Virus record (IMG/VR): IMGVR_UViG_3300035662_000107
Span: 1 to 32,082 of that record
DNA: 32,082 nt
Reading direction: 5' to 3' (one strand)
Origin: a virus
Both the position numbers and the translations under genes were made by a program. Under the pieces are notes generated by a model that had not been told where the DNA came from, made no database searches, and saw only the letters and a list, made by a program, of their open reading frames with translations. Below are positions 79-27,871 of this stretch, piece after piece (positions within the stretch are counted from its first letter, which is position 1; each line of letters starts with the position of its first letter).

Positions 79-106
79 TTGCGCGCTGCGCTGGCTGCGC
101 TATTGT
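79..106 (+). promoter_or_regulatory. sigma70-like promoter, unit 1
   Basis: The -35 box TTGCGC (79-84) and -10 box TATTGT (101-106) are separated by 16 bp. The 14 nt TGCGCTATTGTCTC that ends this promoter is repeated exactly at the unit 3 promoter near 1258-1271. It reads toward the small gene at 153. Confidence 0.6.
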
Positions 107-115
107 CTCCGTACC

Positions 116-133
116 GACACCCCACAGCGGGAC
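116..133 (+). promoter_or_regulatory. conserved leader element, copy 1
   Basis: GACACCCCACAGCGGGAC lies 9 nt after the -10 box, so it should sit at the very 5' end of the transcript. A ribosome binding site (AAGGAG, 140-145) and a GTG start at 153 follow. Three further copies occur at 407, 1285 and 1570. It could be an operator or an RNA leader signal. Confidence 0.7.
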
Positions 134-152
134 GGCAACAAGGAGAGAACCA

Positions 153-371
153 GTGACCACGCGACAGAACTACATCGATTTCTGCCAGGAACATGGAACC
201 GATCCGGTCGAGTACGAAAACCAAGTGCTTTCGATCGGCAGCGAATACTTGCCCGGGTGTGCGCGCCGTGTCCGCGACAGCGGAAAAGCGAGCGCTGCCT
301 ACTGGCGCTGGTTGACAGAGCAGCTGGCTTTGGAAATCATGGAAAACGAGTGCCGACCCAGCTTTGATTGA
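153..371 (+). CDS. small hypothetical early protein (72 aa)
   Basis: No family is recognised. The GTG start at 153 is chosen because AAGGAG lies 7 nt upstream, directly behind the first promoter and leader element. The product is soluble and probably mostly helical, with an aromatic stretch YWRW near residue 50 and an acidic C-terminus. Its TGA stop (369-371) is embedded in the TTGACA -35 box of the next unit, so the end of this gene and the next promoter are fused. A role in early takeover of the host is only a guess based on position. Confidence 0.75.
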   Translation: MTTRQNYIDFCQEHGTDPVEYENQVLSIGSEYLPGCARRVRDSGKASAAYWRWLTEQLALEIMENECRPSFD

Positions 372-396
372 CACGACCTCTCACGCTACATACATC
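368..396 (+). promoter_or_regulatory. sigma70-like promoter, unit 2
   Basis: A consensus -35 box TTGACA (368-373) is followed after 17 bp by a poorer -10 box TACATC (391-396). The -35 overlaps the TGA stop of the preceding gene; the string TTGACACGA recurs in the same position at unit 4 (1533). The -10 is weak, so exact placement is uncertain. Confidence 0.45.
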
Positions 397-406
397 ACGA
401 CCACAC

Positions 407-427
407 GGACACCCCACAGCGGGACCG
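407..427 (+). promoter_or_regulatory. conserved leader element, copy 2
   Basis: Same element as at 116, GGACACCCCACAGCGGGACC then G. It is followed by AGGAGA (430-435) and the ATG at 438. The central variant CACAG is shared with copy 1; copies 3 and 4 carry CGAG instead. Confidence 0.7.
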
Positions 428-437
428 ACAGGAGACC

Positions 438-629
438 ATGACCATGATCATCAGCATCCAAGCGAACCAACTGCGAGTCGGCGACAAGCTCGTGCACATC
501 GAGTACGTGTACAACGAGCGCATCACCAAGCTCACCACGCTGCCAAACGGCAACGTCGAGATAACCATGGGCCGCGGGCGTCGCGTGCGCACCGTGGCGC
601 CCACCACCGAGTGCGGTGTGTCGCGATGA
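438..629 (+). CDS. small beta-rich hypothetical protein (63 aa)
   Basis: Starts at the ATG 2 nt after AGGAGA and the leader element; an in-frame ATG at 444 is an alternative with better spacing. The sequence alternates hydrophobic and polar residues (VGDKLVHIEYV, then VEITMGRGRRVRTV) and looks like a small SH3-like beta barrel with a basic RGRR turn. That is fold inference, not family recognition. Its stop overlaps the start of the next gene (ATGA at 626-629), so the two are translationally coupled. A longer reading frame from 368 runs across this gene in another frame, but its first 86 residues are His/Arg-rich shadow. Confidence 0.75.
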   Translation: MTMIISIQANQLRVGDKLVHIEYVYNERITKLTTLPNGNVEITMGRGRRVRTVAPTTECGVSR

Positions 630-910
630 CCATCTCACGCAAAGCACTCGCATCCATCCGAGCAGCGCTGCACCAGATCGGCGCTGCCATCCGAGACGAG
701 GTGCAGCGGGAGCGCTCCACGCTCATCGGCGCCGAGTACGTGCGTGGCGGCTGCGATGGTGTGTGGATCGTCAAGCTCGACACGGGCAACACCGTGCAGC
801 TGAGGTGCGGTGACCGCTACGCCTTCGTGGCGCGCTCCGAGCTCGACGGCCCGCTGTGGACTCGCCTCGACCGCGTCTACGGCACCACGCCCACGCAAGG
901 CGACGCGTGA
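626..910 (+). CDS. hypothetical protein (94 aa), coupled to upstream gene
   Basis: The real start is the ATG at 626 that overlaps the preceding TGA. An open frame extends back to 368 without a ribosome site and with junk-like composition, so I do not use it. The N-terminal 35 residues look helical and amphipathic; the rest is beta-like (GVWIVKLDTGNTVQLRCGDRY), perhaps a small barrel. No family recognised. The stop overlaps the GTG of the next gene (GTGA 907-910), giving a three-gene cassette under promoter unit 2. Confidence 0.7.
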   Translation: MTISRKALASIRAALHQIGAAIRDEVQRERSTLIGAEYVRGGCDGVWIVKLDTGNTVQLRCGDRYAFVARSELDGPLWTRLDRVYGTTPTQGDA

Positions 911-1179
911 CCACCGACTTCGATGTGCGGCTGCTCGAGCTGGTTGAGCAGCTGCGCGCGGGAGACAACACCATGCGACGAGAATACAACCACGGCCCGC
1001 TCGGCCTGCTACCGAGCACGGGCAAGCAAACAATCAACATCCGCTACAGCCTGCCCGTGGAGCTCGTGGACTGGGTGCGCTCGGAGTCGCAGGCGCTAGG
1101 CATCAGCGCGAGCGAGTTCGTCGAGGCCCAGCTCGACACCGCGCGCGACAACTGGGACGACATCCACAGCGACGACTAG
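907..1179 (+). CDS. ribbon-helix-helix-like DNA-binding protein (90 aa)
   Basis: Residues about 39-75 have the Arc/MetJ/CopG pattern: a short beta strand (QTINIRYSLP), a first helix (VELVDWVRSESQALG) and a second helix after ISASEFVEAQL. In this family the strand pairs in a dimer and contacts the DNA major groove, usually as a repressor. The GTG start at 907 overlaps the previous stop. An internal ATG at 973, with GGGAG at 960-964, could give a 68-residue form keeping the whole domain. The C-terminus is acidic. As the only evident DNA-binding protein in the early block, it is a candidate regulator of the repeated elements; that is inference. Confidence 0.7.
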   Translation: MTTDFDVRLLELVEQLRAGDNTMRREYNHGPLGLLPSTGKQTINIRYSLPVELVDWVRSESQALGISASEFVEAQLDTARDNWDDIHSDD

Positions 1180-1200
1180 TCAAGCGCAAAGCGACGTCGC

Positions 1201-1238
1201 AAAAAAACCCACTCATTTGCCATGGGCGCGTTTTTTTT
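1201..1238 (+). terminator. putative terminator between early units
   Basis: An A-run (1201-1207) and CCCA face TGGG (1223-1226) and a run of eight T (1231-1238), interrupted by a CGCG bulge. A perfect 10-bp dyad GCGACGTCGC lies immediately upstream. The T-tract and the following fresh promoter at 1241 support termination, but the stem is imperfect. Confidence 0.4.
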
Positions 1239-1240
1239 AC

Positions 1241-1268
1241 TTGCGCATTCAAGCCGATGCGCTATTGT
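1241..1268 (+). promoter_or_regulatory. sigma70-like promoter, unit 3
   Basis: TTGCGC (1241-1246), 16-bp spacer, TATTGT (1263-1268): the same boxes and spacing as unit 1 at 79, and identical over the 14 nt around the -10. It follows the terminator-like T-run directly. Confidence 0.6.
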
Positions 1269-1284
1269 CTCTCTTGTCAACAGC

Positions 1285-1304
1285 GGACACCCCGAGCGGG
1301 ACCG
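1285..1304 (+). promoter_or_regulatory. conserved leader element, copy 3
   Basis: GGACACCCCGAGCGGGACCG, identical over 20 nt to copy 4 at 1570. It lies 16 nt after the -10 box and is followed by AAGGAG (1313-1318) and the ATG at 1327. Confidence 0.7.
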
Positions 1305-1326
1305 CGACAACCAAGGAGCCGACACC

Positions 1327-1536
1327 ATGAAGAATGCATCCGCCATCGCCATCGCCCGCAAGATGCTCAAGATCGACATGGACGCCTGGAAGCGCGAAGG
1401 ATTTTATGGCAACATGAGCCACGAGTGCGAGTGGCACGACCGCACCATCTGCGAGCTCGTGGGCCGCAAGATGCGCGAGCAGAGCCTGAGCGACGTGCGC
1501 CGCGCATACGAGAGCATCATGCGCTCGATGGCTTGA
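1327..1536 (+). CDS. small hypothetical protein (69 aa)
   Basis: The start is the ATG at 1327, behind AAGGAG and leader copy 3; an open frame back to 1222 reads through the promoter and leader and is rejected. The product is basic and mainly helical, with a CEWHDRTIC stretch near residues 36-44 that could hold a metal, though this is weak. The TGA stop (1534-1536) is embedded in the TTGACA box of the next promoter, as seen for the first gene. Function unknown. Confidence 0.75.
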   Translation: MKNASAIAIARKMLKIDMDAWKREGFYGNMSHECEWHDRTICELVGRKMREQSLSDVRRAYESIMRSMA

Positions 1537-1560
1537 CACGAGCAGCCGCTAAGCTACTAT
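1533..1560 (+). promoter_or_regulatory. sigma70-like promoter, unit 4
   Basis: Consensus TTGACA (1533-1538), 16-bp spacer, TACTAT (1555-1560). This is the best match of the four promoters. Its -35 contains the stop codon of the upstream gene. Confidence 0.65.
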
Positions 1561-1569
1561 CTCACCAAC

Positions 1570-1589
1570 GGACACCCCGAGCGGGACCG
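1570..1589 (+). promoter_or_regulatory. conserved leader element, copy 4
   Basis: GGACACCCCGAGCGGGACCG starts 9 nt after the -10 box and is followed by CAGGAGA (1597-1603) and the ATG at 1610. It is identical to copy 3. Confidence 0.7.
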
Positions 1590-1609
1590 CTACAATCAGG
1601 AGACCGACC

Positions 1610-2017
1610 ATGGACAAGCTCAGCATCCGCAACCACGTGTATTCCACCGGCAGCTCGTACGCTCAGACCAAGAGCGTTACGCCGTGGCAACAGCGCCTCG
1701 CGCCCAGCGCCGGCAGCGCGTACCAGCCCGAGCCGCCGCGCGATGCGGTGCTCGAGATGATCGTAGTGATGGACAACCCCGTCACCGGCTACGGTGTTGA
1801 GTACGAGGTTCTGATCTGCGCAGACCTGATTCCTGCGCAAAACGGCGGCATGTGGGACCCCAGCTGGCCCGCCCACTTCGGCGAGGCCGAGGCATGGTAT
1901 CACCGCGAGAACCGAGGCTGGAAGCGCCTCGAGCTCGACAGGCAGGGCGTGGCTCAGGTGGAGCGCGAGCTTGAGCGCGAGATGAGCTACATCGAGGTAT
2001 ACGGCCGCGGGCCATGA
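1610..2017 (+). CDS. hypothetical protein (135 aa), last plus-strand gene
   Basis: The start is set by CAGGAGA and leader copy 4. The first 45 residues are polar and probably disordered (Ser, Gln, Pro). The middle is a mixed beta region with DAVLEMIVVMDN and YEVLICADLIP, and the C-terminal 45 residues are Trp/Glu/Arg-rich and probably helical. No known family is recognised. It is the largest of the leader-controlled genes and is followed by the convergent hairpin at 2041-2065. Confidence 0.8.
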   Translation: MDKLSIRNHVYSTGSSYAQTKSVTPWQQRLAPSAGSAYQPEPPRDAVLEMIVVMDNPVTGYGVEYEVLICADLIPAQNGGMWDPSWPAHFGEAEAWYHRENRGWKRLELDRQGVAQVERELEREMSYIEVYGRGP

Positions 2018-6835: not shown

Positions 6836-8644
6836 TCAGATGGCTCCGATGTTTCCGACGATGTGGGCATCCCACTCGTATGTTTGTCCTGTGACTCCAA
6901 GCACCTCGAGGATGATGTCGTTTCCGCTCACTGACCAACGCCAGTTAGTGGACGCATCGTCCTCATGGCTAAAATCTGTTTGGGTGCTGGAAACGACAGG
7001 TGCCGCGCTACCAGTGCGCTTGCACGCTGCGTAGGTGTACACCACGGTAGCGTTGCCCTCCACGTCCGTGCGCTTGCCCACGAGGTAAGCCGTCAGCATT
7101 GCGACCGAAGAAACAGGCATCGAGATGGTTGCGCATGTCGTGTACGTGCTGTTCGTGGTCTGCACTCGCCCATGCTGGTGATGGTAGTGCTTGGTCGTTA
7201 GACCACCCGACACGCCGATCGGCGACATGTCAGTGGTGACGCCGTTGGGCGAGCGCGCTGCGAGCGCATGGCCTCCTGCGTAGAGCAGCTGCCCGCTGAC
7301 CGGATTGGCCGTGGGGGCCGTCGCATAATCGGCGATGTACAGCACGCGGTCACCGGTGCCAGCAGGGAGTTCCGTCGCTGTCACAGCGGCACCGAGGCCG
7401 AGCACGACCGCTCTGCGCCCCGTGGCGACCTCCGCGACCTCGACCATGGGCTCTGCGCTGGTCTCGTCGAGCGAGAGTCGCACGCCGCCCTTGAGGCCCG
7501 TGCCGTGCGGCGAGCCCCCAGCGAGCGCAAGCGTGCCGCCGTTGCCGTTGCCTCCCAGCGAAGTCTGCGCGGCAATGGTCAGCGTTGTGCCGTTGCCGGT
7601 GGTCTTGTCCTCCTGGTTGATAAGCGGAGTTGCTAACGTTTCGTCAATAGCGATCGTGCCGCCGCTGGTCGGGCCTGGGATGTAAATATATGGACCGCCG
7701 CTAAGCCCAAGGCTGACGAAGTTGGTGCTATCAAGCACCAGATTGTTTCCAGACGTCAGCGTAATATCGCTTGGTGCTGTGACGGTGACACTGTTGCCAT
7801 CGACGAACGTCGGATAGCTTGACGTGCCTAGCTCGACCACGTCGGCGTTGACTGCGCCGAACGCGAGCACCGTTGCATCTGCCGCGTCGGCAAAGTCTCG
7901 CGCCTGCACCGTGAACGCCTGCGGCAAACGCACCTCGCCAGCTGTGGCGATGGGGTTTCCGCCTTGCGTAACTGCCAGATACGACAGAGCCGTCGCGCTG
8001 TTGAGCTGCGTGCCCGAGACGTCTGCAGTTGCGCTCAGCACACCCGAGCCGTTGGTGATTACCACGCGGTCAGCCGTGAGCGAGCTTGGAAGGATGGCGT
8101 CGACCTTGGCCTTGTCTGCCGCCGACATGCTGCCAGCAGCCACCGAGCTTGCCGCAGTGATGGCAATGTTTGGCGATGCGCCGCCGCTCGACGTGATGGG
8201 CGCGCTAGCCGTCACGGTCGAGACGCCGCCAGAGGCCACGTTGCGCACGGCGCTGTTGACGATGCCAGTCCAGCCGAACGCAGCCGAGCTCTCCGCGTTC
8301 TCGCCCACGCACGCGACCTCGAGGCTGGTGCCAGTGGCAGGAACCCACCACTTGCGCGTGGTGCTGTAGCTCGTGTCGAGCTGACCTAGCTGGTTAATGC
8401 CGCCGTTGATCGTGCACCGAAGGATCGCAGCCGTGCCAGCTGCGCCCGCTGTGATGGTGGCCACGCTGCCCAGCGTGCCGCTCGTGGCGATGGTGTATGT
8501 GCCGCTCGTCTCGTCCGTGCCGACGATGCTCCACGACACCGACGACACGCCCGTCAGCGATGTGAGCGTTGCGACAACAGAACCTGCCGCGGTGGCCTGG
8601 TACTTGTTGACGCTGCCCGTAAATGTAAACGCAGGAGAAGGCAT
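6836..8644 (-). CDS. tail fibre protein (602 aa)
   Basis: A long Thr/Ser/Gly/Ala-rich beta protein. It includes the tail-fibre hallmark MSAADKAKVDAI near residue 170, a repetitive segment rich in TSGNNLVLDS and GGTLALAGGS motifs, an HYHHQHG metal-like cluster near residue 483, and a compact C-terminal domain ending YEWDAHIVGNIGAI. Such trimeric fibres attach the virion to the host cell. The start follows a GAGG site. Residues around 300-370 are coded by AT-richer DNA than the rest, which hints at domain exchange. Confidence 0.8.
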   Translation of the reverse strand: MPSPAFTFTGSVNKYQATAAGSVVATLTSLTGVSSVSWSIVGTDETSGTYTIATSGTLGSVATITAGAAGTAAILRCTINGGINQLGQLDTSYSTTRKWWVPATGTSLEVACVGENAESSAAFGWTGIVNSAVRNVASGGVSTVTASAPITSSGGASPNIAITAASSVAAGSMSAADKAKVDAILPSSLTADRVVITNGSGVLSATADVSGTQLNSATALSYLAVTQGGNPIATAGEVRLPQAFTVQARDFADAADATVLAFGAVNADVVELGTSSYPTFVDGNSVTVTAPSDITLTSGNNLVLDSTNFVSLGLSGGPYIYIPGPTSGGTIAIDETLATPLINQEDKTTGNGTTLTIAAQTSLGGNGNGGTLALAGGSPHGTGLKGGVRLSLDETSAEPMVEVAEVATGRRAVVLGLGAAVTATELPAGTGDRVLYIADYATAPTANPVSGQLLYAGGHALAARSPNGVTTDMSPIGVSGGLTTKHYHHQHGRVQTTNSTYTTCATISMPVSSVAMLTAYLVGKRTDVEGNATVVYTYAACKRTGSAAPVVSSTQTDFSHEDDASTNWRWSVSGNDIILEVLGVTGQTYEWDAHIVGNIGAI

Positions 8645-8653
8645 GGTGTTACC

Positions 8654-9280
8654 TCAGGCCCAAGAGTCCTCGATCGCCGCGAGCACCTGCAAGGTGGTCG
8701 GGCTCCACGTGATGGGCAGCCACTGCGACCCAGTCCACATGAGGTGCAGATATGCCCACTTTTCCGCGCGAAAGTTGATCGGTGTTCCACCGAAAATGAT
8801 TGTGGACACATGATTGCTAGGAGCGGTGTTGGCCATGTTTACGCTTGCTCGCACAATGCGAAGCACGTGCCCAGTCTTTGGCACAGGTGACGTGCCTAGG
8901 ATGGTGTAAATGCGATTGCCGGTCAGCGTCACCGGAATCATGAGCACGTCACGCGTCGCGCCCTGCACGGTCTGGTCGGCATCGTTGAGCGTAAGCAAGC
9001 GAAGGCCGATGCCAGCGTTGTTGCCGCTGAGTACGACCTGACCCGTCACCGTCTCGGTGCCGCTCACGTTGAGCGCGCCTGCTACCGCAAGCGTGTTTGA
9101 TGCGCCGATGGTGACGCCAGCGCTGCCGCCTAACGTAAGCGCTCCACTCGGCGTGTACGTGCCGCCAGCGTTGCCATCGATCGCGAGCGACTGGTTCAGA
9201 TCGATCTGATTGATCTGCGCGGCTGTGATGATGTCGACGTTGTCCGTCCACCCGGTTGGCTTTGCTCTTGAGAACGTCAT
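8654..9280 (-). CDS. tail fibre-associated protein, paralogue B (208 aa)
   Basis: Exactly as long as the upstream neighbour and clearly homologous to it: both start MTF-RA-P-GWTD-VD-ITA-Q-NQID, contain an ALT(L/I)GGSAGV block and LTGNR(I/T)YT-L-TSPVP-TGH, and end WSPT then AIEDSW. The beta-rich sequence suggests a trimeric baseplate or fibre-tip protein. It follows the gp48-like baseplate protein and precedes the large fibre, where fibre adaptors normally lie. RBS GAGG lies upstream of the ATG. Confidence 0.75.
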   Translation of the reverse strand: MTFSRAKPTGWTDNVDIITAAQINQIDLNQSLAIDGNAGGTYTPSGALTLGGSAGVTIGASNTLAVAGALNVSGTETVTGQVVLSGNNAGIGLRLLTLNDADQTVQGATRDVLMIPVTLTGNRIYTILGTSPVPKTGHVLRIVRASVNMANTAPSNHVSTIIFGGTPINFRAEKWAYLHLMWTGSQWLPITWSPTTLQVLAAIEDSWA

Positions 9281-9289
9281 GGCATCACC

Positions 9290-9916
9290 TCACGACCACG
9301 AATCTTCAATCGCCAGCGCCAGGTCAACGTTGGTCGGCGACCACTCGACTGGATACCACGCGGCGCCGTCCCACATGATGATCCAAAAGGCAAACTTATC
9401 GTGGAGCAAATCGGTGTTGACTGCTCCACCAAAGTCGATGGTAGCGCGATGGCTGCTCGGCTTTGCGCTAGACAGATCACGCAACGTCCTCACGATCTTT
9501 AGCATGTGCCCCGTGACTGGCACGGGCGAGGTTGCGAGCACCGTATAGGTGCGATTGCCAGTCAACGCTGCCGGAATGCGAAACACGTCCACCCGACCAC
9601 CCTGAAACGCAAGGTCGGAGTCCGACGCATCAAACACGCGCTGCGACAGCTGACCGTTGCCAGACAGCACAAGTCCGCCCGTCTGCGTCTGCGTGCCAGA
9701 CATCGCTAGCGTTCCTGCCACTGTCAGCGTGTTGGACGTGGTCACGTTGACGCCAGCAGAGCCGCCGATCGTCAACGCCACATTCGGCAGGTACGAACCA
9801 CCAGCCGAGCCGTCGAGCGCGCGCGAGATGTTGACGTCGATCTGGTTGAGCTGCGGCGCAGTGATGGCGTCCACACCATCGGTCCAGCCTGCAGGTAGTG
9901 CGCGCGTGAACGTCAT
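9290..9916 (-). CDS. tail fibre-associated protein, paralogue A (208 aa)
   Basis: Tandem paralogue of the next gene with the same length and ends. The start is the ATG at 9916 overlapping the previous stop (ATGA), not the open frame to 9988, whose extra residues are Arg/His/Trp-rich. The C-terminal half carries LTGNRTYTVLATSPVPVTGH, a beta motif also visible in the 169-residue neck protein at 22563. Probably a fibre or fibre adaptor attached to the baseplate. Confidence 0.75.
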   Translation of the reverse strand: MTFTRALPAGWTDGVDAITAPQLNQIDVNISRALDGSAGGSYLPNVALTIGGSAGVNVTTSNTLTVAGTLAMSGTQTQTGGLVLSGNGQLSQRVFDASDSDLAFQGGRVDVFRIPAALTGNRTYTVLATSPVPVTGHMLKIVRTLRDLSSAKPSSHRATIDFGGAVNTDLLHDKFAFWIIMWDGAAWYPVEWSPTNVDLALAIEDSWS

Positions 9917-10566
9917 ACGAACGTACTCCCAACGATGCCAACGCCAGCGATGAACGACGACCCGACGCCGATGCGATAGGACATCCAAGCCGGGATCATG
10001 CCGTCGATAAGCTCCGCAGCTCTAGCCTTTTGCTGCAGGAACTCGGTGTCAGTCAGTGCGCCCTGTTGCACTTGCACGCCGACGATGGCTCGGTTGCTGG
10101 TCCACTCGAATCCAGGTGGGCCTGGATTGACGCCTGGCCAGTACACGACCTCGCCAGCCACTGGCACAAACACCAGCTGCACGAAGCTCGCGCCTAGCAG
10201 CTCCTCAAGCGCCGCGCTCATGTCGCCTACGGTCACGCCGATGAGACCACGCAGCCGCGAAGCCACGCGAGCCCTGCGCACCTGCACGCCATCGCTCGAG
10301 CTAGGACGGGTGCGACACGCCGTCTCCCACGAGGTCAACGTCTCGAGCATGCGCGCTGGGATGAGCGAGCACCGCGCGCGCCCAGCTGCCACCCACGCCA
10401 CAGTCACGCCAAGCGCCTGCGCCAGCGCCTCGGGGTAGACCTCGGAGTCGGTGGTCACGTCGAGATACGGCGTGAGCGCGTCGAGCAGCGCCTCGTGCTC
10501 GAGCTCGACGGTGTGTTTCTGCCCGCCCCAACGGCGAGGAAACGGAGAGCGACCCCACCTAGCCAT
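9913..10566 (-). CDS. Mu gp48-like baseplate protein (217 aa)
   Basis: Position right after a J/gp47-like wedge and another small protein, length near 200, and a C-terminal pattern of a DUF2313/YmfQ-type protein support a gp48-like assignment. Mu gp48 joins the baseplate wedges and precedes fibre genes, as here. The N-terminus is basic; residues about 100-125 (RLRGLIGVTVGDMSAALEELLG) form a helix, and the C-terminus is Gly/Val-rich. Family call is mainly contextual. Confidence 0.6.
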   Translation of the reverse strand: MARWGRSPFPRRWGGQKHTVELEHEALLDALTPYLDVTTDSEVYPEALAQALGVTVAWVAAGRARCSLIPARMLETLTSWETACRTRPSSSDGVQVRRARVASRLRGLIGVTVGDMSAALEELLGASFVQLVFVPVAGEVVYWPGVNPGPPGFEWTSNRAIVGVQVQQGALTDTEFLQQKARAAELIDGMIPAWMSYRIGVGSSFIAGVGIVGSTFV

Positions 10567-27682: not shown

Positions 27683-27871
27683 CTAGAGACGCCGACGACG
27701 GCGCTCGGGGACGGGGGCAGGCGCGGGAGCTTCCTCGACGGGCTCAGGCGCGATCGCGACAGGTGCAGGCTTTGGCTCTGCCATCGGCTCCCACGATGCC
27801 TCGCCGCACTTGGGGCACGTCGCCGCGTTGCCGCTTTCGATGTGTTTGCAGATCTTGCAACGCCTCATCAC
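27683..27871 (-). CDS. small zinc-ribbon protein with basic tail (62 aa)
   Basis: The N-terminal 26 residues form a zinc ribbon: CKIC at 5-8 and CPKC at 19-22. A Pro/Ala-rich linker (PKPAPVAIAPEPVEEAPAPAP) and an Arg cluster RRRRRL follow. Zinc ribbons with basic tails usually bind nucleic acid or protein. It overlaps the upstream gene by 4 nt (ATGA) and starts with a tandem ATG. Its place inside the head cluster is unusual. Confidence 0.75.
   Translation of the reverse strand: MMRRCKICKHIESGNAATCPKCGEASWEPMAEPKPAPVAIAPEPVEEAPAPAPVPERRRRRL

Follow-up and report, generated by a model that had tools for sequence, protein, structure and literature searches.

A predicted leader hairpin repeated before small genes in four related phages

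A short element is repeated in front of small genes in an uncultured phage, the virus record IMGVR_UViG_3300035662_000107 of IMG/VR, which was analysed here over its complete length of 32,082 bases (the window). The element is a 21-25 nt RNA hairpin composed of an outer stem of 3-5 bp, an ACA/A internal loop, a CCC/GGG inner stem and an apical loop of 5-6 nt. We found 19 copies in the window and in three related phages (G001, G002 and G003), all of them on the plus strand, which is the coding strand, in a single gene block and directly before GGAG and a start codon. The element probably serves as a cis-acting, post-transcriptional leader hairpin that acts on translation or on the stability of the mRNA 5′ end. 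The original prediction had described four units of promoter, near-identical 20-nt element, ribosome-binding site and start codon. All four are present (promoters at 79, 368, 1241 and 1533) and the element does recur, but its outer arms make it longer than 20 nt.

Aligned over 24 columns, including one gap column, the 19 copies collapse into 10 distinct rows. The ACA on the 5′ side, the single A on the 3′ side and the CCC/GGG inner stem are invariant in all copies. The apical loop occurs in six types (CACAGC, CACTGC, CACAGA, CGAGC, CCAGC and CACGA), and the length of its centre varies by one base. For the outer stem the versions CCG/CGG, CGG/CCG and UCG/CGA were found, with pairing kept in every copy: the three innermost pairs are retained in 19/19 copies (10/10 distinct rows) and a fourth pair in 4/10 rows. 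Copies 1 and 2 of the window, CCG-ACACCCCACAGCGGGA-CGG and CGG-ACACCCCACAGCGGGA-CCG, differ at two of their 22 bases, the two being partners in the stem. Copy 1 had previously been read as GGACACCCC...GGGACCG; the correct sequence is CGACACCCC...GGGACGG, so that its two differences from copy 2 amount to one base pair. A further case is the gene for a 69-amino-acid protein, where the outer stem is GUCG/CGAC in G002 versus GCGG/CCGC in the window and G003; here bases are missing on the 5′ side and the 3′ side carries the matching change. Over the 10 distinct rows, two outer-stem pairs are altered on both sides. The number of double-change cells is 5, compared with 1.7 in shuffles, and 0/500 shuffles reach 5. 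The covariation score of 0.210 (0.070 in shuffles) was likewise reached by none of the 500, and six slid registers score 0 to 0.010. RNAalifold, applied unaided, predicts six core pairs.

The core of the element, GACACCCC-(AC or G)-AGCGGGAC, starts at 116, 408, 1286 and 1571 of the window, always on the plus strand, with a sigma70-like promoter before it and a start codon after it. The centre has two bases in the first two cores (116-133 and 408-425) and one base in the others (1286-1302 and 1571-1587). With up to three mismatches allowed, the one-base-centre core gives four matches, namely its two exact copies and two scattered ones; the shuffle mean is 0.48 and 0/100 shuffles reach four. For the two-base-centre core, also with two exact copies, the shuffle mean at up to three mismatches is 0.56 and 11/100 shuffles reach two. 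The latter test is weak by itself, and position together with recurrence in relatives is the stronger evidence.

A core pattern search of viral contigs led to the three further phages, G001 (58,478 bases), G002 (58,059) and G003 (38,508); another record, G004, is the G001 phage cut at another point, with blocks that are 100% identical. The long blocks in common with the window are 98.9% identical in G001 (93.2% in a shorter block), 85-92% in G002 and 79-92% in G003. The structure-based search (at least three outer pairs, ACA, CCC, loop of 3-8, GGG, A) detected four copies in the window, four in G001, five in G002 and six in G003. A looser search, in which any GC-rich inner stem was accepted, added seven scattered matches over the four genomes, which we take as chance. 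Exact-pattern scans of viral contigs delivered 42 stretches for the AGC core and 31 when AGGAG was required in addition. Within the loci of these related phages (L004 and its circular permutation L027, L015/L040 and L021), 19/19 core matches have both a paired outer stem and GGAG with a start, at 15 places since one phage is counted twice. The viral contigs also provided a control: among 63 core matches outside these phages, six have at least three Watson-Crick outer pairs, seven have GGAG plus a start codon and none has both. Among 80 of at least 120 matches to core plus GGAG in bacterial and archaeal genomes, seven have at least three outer pairs, two of those with a start. The search of this genome and of related phages that had been proposed thus revealed copies that are tied to gene starts and not scattered.

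A covariance model was run over 21 records, comprising 17 portal relatives, the window and G001-G003, and matches were obtained in 4/21, which are the window and G001-G003. The loci compared for the 17 portal relatives stop short of the gene block and say little about these phages; for some of their records, among them that of L156 with 39 kb, the comparison with G001 covered only part of the sequence. One isolated, weaker model match on the minus strand of G001 (44233-44256, 20.4 bits, E 0.007) falls within a called gene and is attributed to chance, as are the weak matches in two of the records with a distant terminase (18 of 80 loci; best E 0.02). Queries with the 63- and 208-amino-acid proteins matched the G001-G003 phages exclusively. 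Relatives of the methyltransferase are encoded in 599 loci, and this query was unsuited for tracing the element.

The distance from the third outer pair to GGAG is 3-10 nt in all 19 copies, and the first possible start codon follows the 3′ end of this pair after 10-22 nt. Counted to the first listed start it is 14-22 nt in 17/19 copies and 10 nt in two, for which the next in-frame ATG lies at 16. By consensus scan, 17/19 copies are promoter-borne. In these, 7-15 nt separate the end of the -10 box (TATTGT in the four copies that follow P1) from the second stem column (alignment column 2); the gap had been given as about 9-17 nt, which was right as to its variability and somewhat different in range. 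In 17/17 promoter-borne copies the hairpin starts between predicted +2 and +10, which agrees with the earlier placement of the element within the predicted transcript and close to the 5′ end. Each leader was folded from predicted +1 to just beyond the start codon, and the complete hairpin is the minimum free energy structure in 16/17 of them. An alternative fold of copy 4, CGG-ACACC-CCG followed by AGCG-GGAC-CGCU, was discarded by inspection, as it is incompatible with the loops ACAGC and CCAGC. Also rejected was a larger hairpin of UCUCC with GGAGA, since the predicted +1 falls downstream of UCUCC.

No promoter passes the consensus scan at the two other copies, G002:8081 and G003:1550, and therefore the element goes with the ribosome-entry site. 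The best boxes there agree with the consensus at 5/12 and 7/12 positions, their ends lying 32 and 35 nt upstream of the hairpin. Both copies come after a gene and two GC-rich hairpins. The adjoining GC-rich hairpins themselves, ACCCCGCAAGGGGT and GCACCGTCAAGCGGTGC (G002:8031-8062 and G003:1506-1537), have no T-run and follow a gene for a 43-amino-acid protein.

Two classes of genes can be distinguished in the block, 19 genes with the element and 13 whose start lies within the preceding gene, with an overlap of 4 nt. The element is present in 0/13 of the overlapping genes, and the 15 element genes that are not the first of their block are preceded by a gap of 64-148 nt. As it is found on stand-alone genes and on those after a gap and is absent from overlapping ones, the element goes with independent ribosome entry. 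The gene content of the four phages was compared in a four-way MAFFT alignment, in which window positions 109-625 were misplaced and were compared with G001 by eye. Three junctions lie in or just upstream of an element, and the element is intact before the remaining gene. At G001:10863, promoter and hairpin of the 69-amino-acid gene are joined to the Shine-Dalgarno sequence and body of the next gene. P1 is joined to the hairpin of the 72-amino-acid gene in the window and G001; in G003 the 43-amino-acid gene with its own hairpin stands between them. At G002:8081 the 72-amino-acid gene and the following promoter are absent, and the hairpin before the 63-amino-acid gene is kept. Judged from these arrangements, the stable unit appears to be hairpin, Shine-Dalgarno sequence and gene, with a promoter that comes and goes. 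The former description as a promoter plus leader module therefore holds for the leader but is too narrow, because the promoter is exchangeable and is not found at two copies of the relatives. G001 encodes RecT and a PD-(D/E)XK nuclease, which could drive cassette exchange. A separate difference in gene content was observed at window position 622/626, where, relative to G001 8540-10206, the window is without about 1.66 kb including one hairpin cassette. This junction falls on an ATGA stop/start overlap, so a coupled start would be another gene-swap point.

Several observations weigh against a leader hairpin, or against the strength of the evidence for it. All copies stem from four related phages and reflect few independent events; therefore the shuffles are too lenient and significance is overstated. 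The 19 and 13 genes correspond to about six and four orthologue groups and are not independent cases. Only 2/7 pairs covary. The inner stem is invariant and has no covariation support, because distant relatives that cover the gene block were not found. Two doubly changed pairs are also reached by 44/500 shuffles and the count of further pair types by 468/500, and gene conversion among the copies may have transferred whole arms. Regarding the folding, the minimum free energy structure of window copy 4 is without the outermost of its three outer pairs, with pair probabilities of 0.16-0.24. The folding z is -2.0 to +0.1 in six copies, competing folds exist for window copy 4 and two G002 copies, and with longer flanks other folds win in several copies. 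The GG of the Shine-Dalgarno sequence is often predicted to be partly paired, and thus the direction of any effect cannot be read. Finally, G002:8081 and G003:1550 may have an unusual promoter, as the scan relies on a consensus with which P1 and P3 themselves agree at only 7/12 positions.

Of the three roles originally offered, repressor operator, binding site for an RNA-binding protein and stability element, the latter two survive and are not separated by our data. A DNA operator would be an imperfect palindrome after each promoter, bound by a phage or host repressor or activator that coordinates transcription of the module. The location 7-15 bp past a -10 box in 17/19 copies is a site of repressor action, and a candidate regulator exists in the small HTH_3 protein of G001 (1183-1419, minus strand). 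However, the compensating, copy-specific outer arms are unlike a fixed palindrome, the centre length differs by one base, and the copies have a single orientation with GGAG never more than 10 nt away. Furthermore, whole-record pattern and model searches revealed no copy at G001:1420-1505, between the HTH and RecT genes. Because of the compensatory changes in the stem, the variable loop and the two copies without a found promoter, a repressor operator is disfavoured and we regard a role as DNA operator as unlikely. An even smaller chance is given to a site in the nascent RNA for antitermination or anti-pausing, comparable to HK022 put or lambda nut, by which the polymerase would read through downstream terminators. 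Such a site would fit an RNA hairpin directly after sigma70-like promoters and the terminator-like site inside the block (1201-1238). The put RNA of HK022 has two stem-loops and is not known to be repeated ahead of every gene. Here, one short hairpin recurs beside GGAG before each independently started gene, also after gaps without a found promoter, although a single site per operon would suffice; a boxA-like partner was not noticed, though no systematic search for boxA was made.

The rival that is hardest to exclude is a passive stabiliser at the 5′ terminus, for which any stem-loop would do, guarding against decay of the RNase E/RppH type and keeping the ribosome-binding site open. It overlaps with the leader hairpin proposed here, minus the reader, and we consider it a serious but less than probable explanation. 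Stabilisation of mRNA by 5′-terminal hairpins is known from ompA, and the predicted start of the hairpin at +2 to +10 in all promoter-borne copies suits it well. It would, however, not require the invariant ACA/A and CCC/GGG and a constrained loop in 19 copies, which kinship explains in part, and two copies are away from any predicted 5′ end. That the repeat is kept mainly as a joint for the shuffling of cassettes by RecT and an exonuclease, with no role in expression, seems highly improbable to us. In its favour, three junctions coincide with the element or lie just upstream of it, and G001 has genes for RecT and a PD-(D/E)XK nuclease, but homology needs plain identity and neither pairing nor a fixed place before each GGAG, and any repeated leader is expected to recombine.

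As a leader hairpin, the element would act after transcription at the ribosome-entry site and would set translation and 5′-end stability of the small-gene messages as a group. About half of our confidence in this role belongs to the version in which the hairpin is read by a specific factor. A reader, which would be an RNA-binding factor encoded by the phage or the host, is suggested because the internal loop is invariant and the apical loop half-conserved; the outer stem would merely have to pair. One step further, and put forward tentatively, the copies might form an RNA regulon, in which such a factor recognises the ACA/A internal loop and the apical loop near the 5′ ends of several separate messages and, through translation or decay, switches all genes of the module together, leaving the outer stems free to vary as long as they pair. 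From the promoter type and the neighbouring genes we infer that the element genes are early. Hairpin, Shine-Dalgarno sequence and gene would together be a portable cassette, able to combine with a different upstream promoter or to stand behind another gene, and the repeat would double as the recombination site of these cassettes.

Repeats in front of phage genes have been described before, and the following comparisons refer to excerpts of the published papers. In cluster K mycobacteriophages, the ribosome-binding site carries the start-associated sequence (SAS), an asymmetric 13-mer (GGGATAGGAGCCC) that is repeated nearly always in one orientation directly before starts, often of different gene families (PMC3203893). 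About half of the SAS have a 17-bp imperfect inverted repeat (extended SAS, ESAS) upstream; the function was, according to the excerpt, left open by the authors (PMC3203893). The likeness to these sequences that was noted at the outset, with unrelated sequence, is apt in kind: 19/19 copies stand right before gene starts in one orientation. Unlike SAS, the element does not conform to the 13-mer GGGATAGGAGCCC, is unrelated in sequence and has GGAG outside, 3-10 nt downstream. In addition, sigma70-like promoters usually adjoin it upstream and its stem arms covary, and the repeat of ESAS is longer (PMC3203893). Microbacterium phages of cluster EG carry an 18-bp inverted repeat, the fixed palindrome GATCAACCNNGGTTGATC, and repeated motifs were also described for clusters EC, EF and EI (PMC7302621). 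The EG repeats typically lie 14-22 bp and those of EC 22-30 bp before start codons in short intergenic gaps, and the EG sites are conserved despite differing surrounding DNA (PMC7302621). Placement before the start codon is about the same here (10-22 nt). However, GATCAACCNNGGTTGATC reads equally well as a DNA site, whereas the present element has another sequence, three arm types, compensating arms and an asymmetric internal loop (PMC7302621). In cluster O mycobacteriophages, 17-bp palindromes with invariant arms occur in more than 30 copies, several of them intragenic (PMC4351075). They are dyad repeats as well, and recombination between copies is held responsible for some of the insertions and deletions that distinguish the genomes, which resembles the present case, but they have no fixed place before starts (PMC4351075). 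In sum, our element seems to work like a start-associated element, yet its sequence fits the definition of none of the groups compared.

Two RNA systems of phages are also relevant. In phage Mu, the small protein Com binds a hairpin upstream of the mom start and activates translation, with CC(N)2-3GAG as the proposed loop motif (PMC6483171). The position of a phage hairpin 5′ of a start codon is common to both systems, whereas Com has a single target gene (PMC6483171). Recognition of the Com type is not supported, as by eye CC(N)2-3GAG is found in 3/6 loop types (CGAGC, CACGA, CACAGA) and not in CACAGC, CACTGC and CCAGC. The Com family was not among the 25 families matched by 45 scanned G001 proteins (E up to 0.01). 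The putRNA of HK022 is, like the element, a cis-acting RNA of early phage transcripts, but its target is RNA polymerase: it binds the elongation complex and suppresses pausing and termination (PMC9378689).

The features of the window are compiled in Table 1, together with modification-type genes of G001. The boxes of P1 also open the block in the three relatives. No Pfam or PHROGs match at E up to 0.1 was obtained for the four element genes of the window. Rfam gave no match at or above the gathering score in the window; below it, two weak matches within 60-1650 overlap none of the elements.

Table 1. Coordinates of promoters, hairpins and genes in the window, and of modification-type genes in G001
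Feature	Position	Strand	Details
Promoter-like P1	79..106	+	TTGCGC (79-84), 16 bp, TATTGT (101-106)
Hairpin copy 1	114..135	+	CCG-ACA-CCC-CACAGC-GGG-A-CGG; begins at predicted +2
GGAG (142-145) and GTG start (153-155)	142..155	+	72-amino-acid gene, 153-371
Promoter-like P2	368..396	+	TTGACA (368-373), 17 bp, TACATC (391-396)
Hairpin copy 2	406..427	+	CGG-ACA-CCC-CACAGC-GGG-A-CCG; begins at predicted +4
GGAG (431-434) and ATG start (438)	431..440	+	63-amino-acid gene, 438-629
Two genes without hairpin, 626-910 and 907-1179	626..1179	+	each overlaps the preceding gene by 4 nt
Terminator-like A-run / CCC...GGG / T-run, 5′ of P3	1201..1238	+	predicted from sequence
Promoter-like P3	1241..1268	+	TTGCGC (1241-1246), 16 bp, TATTGT (1263-1268)
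Hairpin copy 3	1283..1305	+	GCGG-ACA-CCC-CGAGC-GGG-A-CCGC; begins at predicted +10, counted to the second stem column
GGAG (1315-1318) and ATG start (1327)	1315..1329	+	69-amino-acid gene, 1327-1536
Promoter-like P4	1533..1560	+	TTGACA (1533-1538), 16 bp, TACTAT (1555-1560)
Hairpin copy 4	1569..1589	+	CGG-ACA-CCC-CGAGC-GGG-A-CCG
GGAG (1599-1602) and ATG start (1610)	1599..1612	+	135-amino-acid gene, 1610-2017
Modification-type genes of G001	L058 2715-3308; L060 3044-4204; L060 6717-7361; L058 5104-7146; L060 5601-6242	+; -; -; +; -	

Outside the block, some genes and sites deserve mention. G001 contains a Mom-like DNA modification gene, two PAPS-reductase-like genes and DNA-methyltransferase-like genes. 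The region before its Mom-like gene has no element by inspection, and the short open reading frame called there does not resemble Com. The small HTH_3 protein of G001 (coordinates on L058) is encoded divergently from the RecT gene and is possibly a Cro/CI-like regulator of the rightward genes. All four phages encode a zinc-ribbon-like protein of 61 amino acids in the head-gene region (window about 27683-27868, minus; G001:36972-37157, minus), with a Pro/Glu-rich tail, five arginines near the end and only weak Pfam zinc-ribbon matches; it is possibly a nucleic-acid binder. On the minus strand at G001:46699, a strong promoter-like sequence (TTGACA-17-TATTGT) is followed by an ATG at the seventh base and by no element, and a similar site is present at G002:47056, minus. 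The arrangement suggests that the message is leaderless, unlike those of the plus strand with their hairpin leaders.

With respect to known phages, megablast against a named-phage collection gave no match, and an alignment of the portal protein against bacterial and archaeal genomes gave no confirmed one. Similarity to named phages is 23% for the portal (Komagataeibacter phages phiKX1 and phiKX2), about 30% for the terminase (to many phages) and about 25-34% over parts of the baseplate. We thus deal with a phage group without a close match in that collection. The open-access literature searched yielded no report of the element, an assessment based on listings and on the papers cited above; among the string matches listed, only the 9-mer GGACACCCC occurred.

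Repeats before gene starts have been known in several actinobacteriophage clusters since 2011, and their role was left open in the excerpts of the respective papers (PMC3203893, PMC7302621). In the phages described here, the compensatory changes and the copies without a found promoter help to separate a role at the RNA level from that of a DNA operator. A vague start-proximal motif can thereby be described as a precise RNA hairpin that is open to testing, and as a portable leader.

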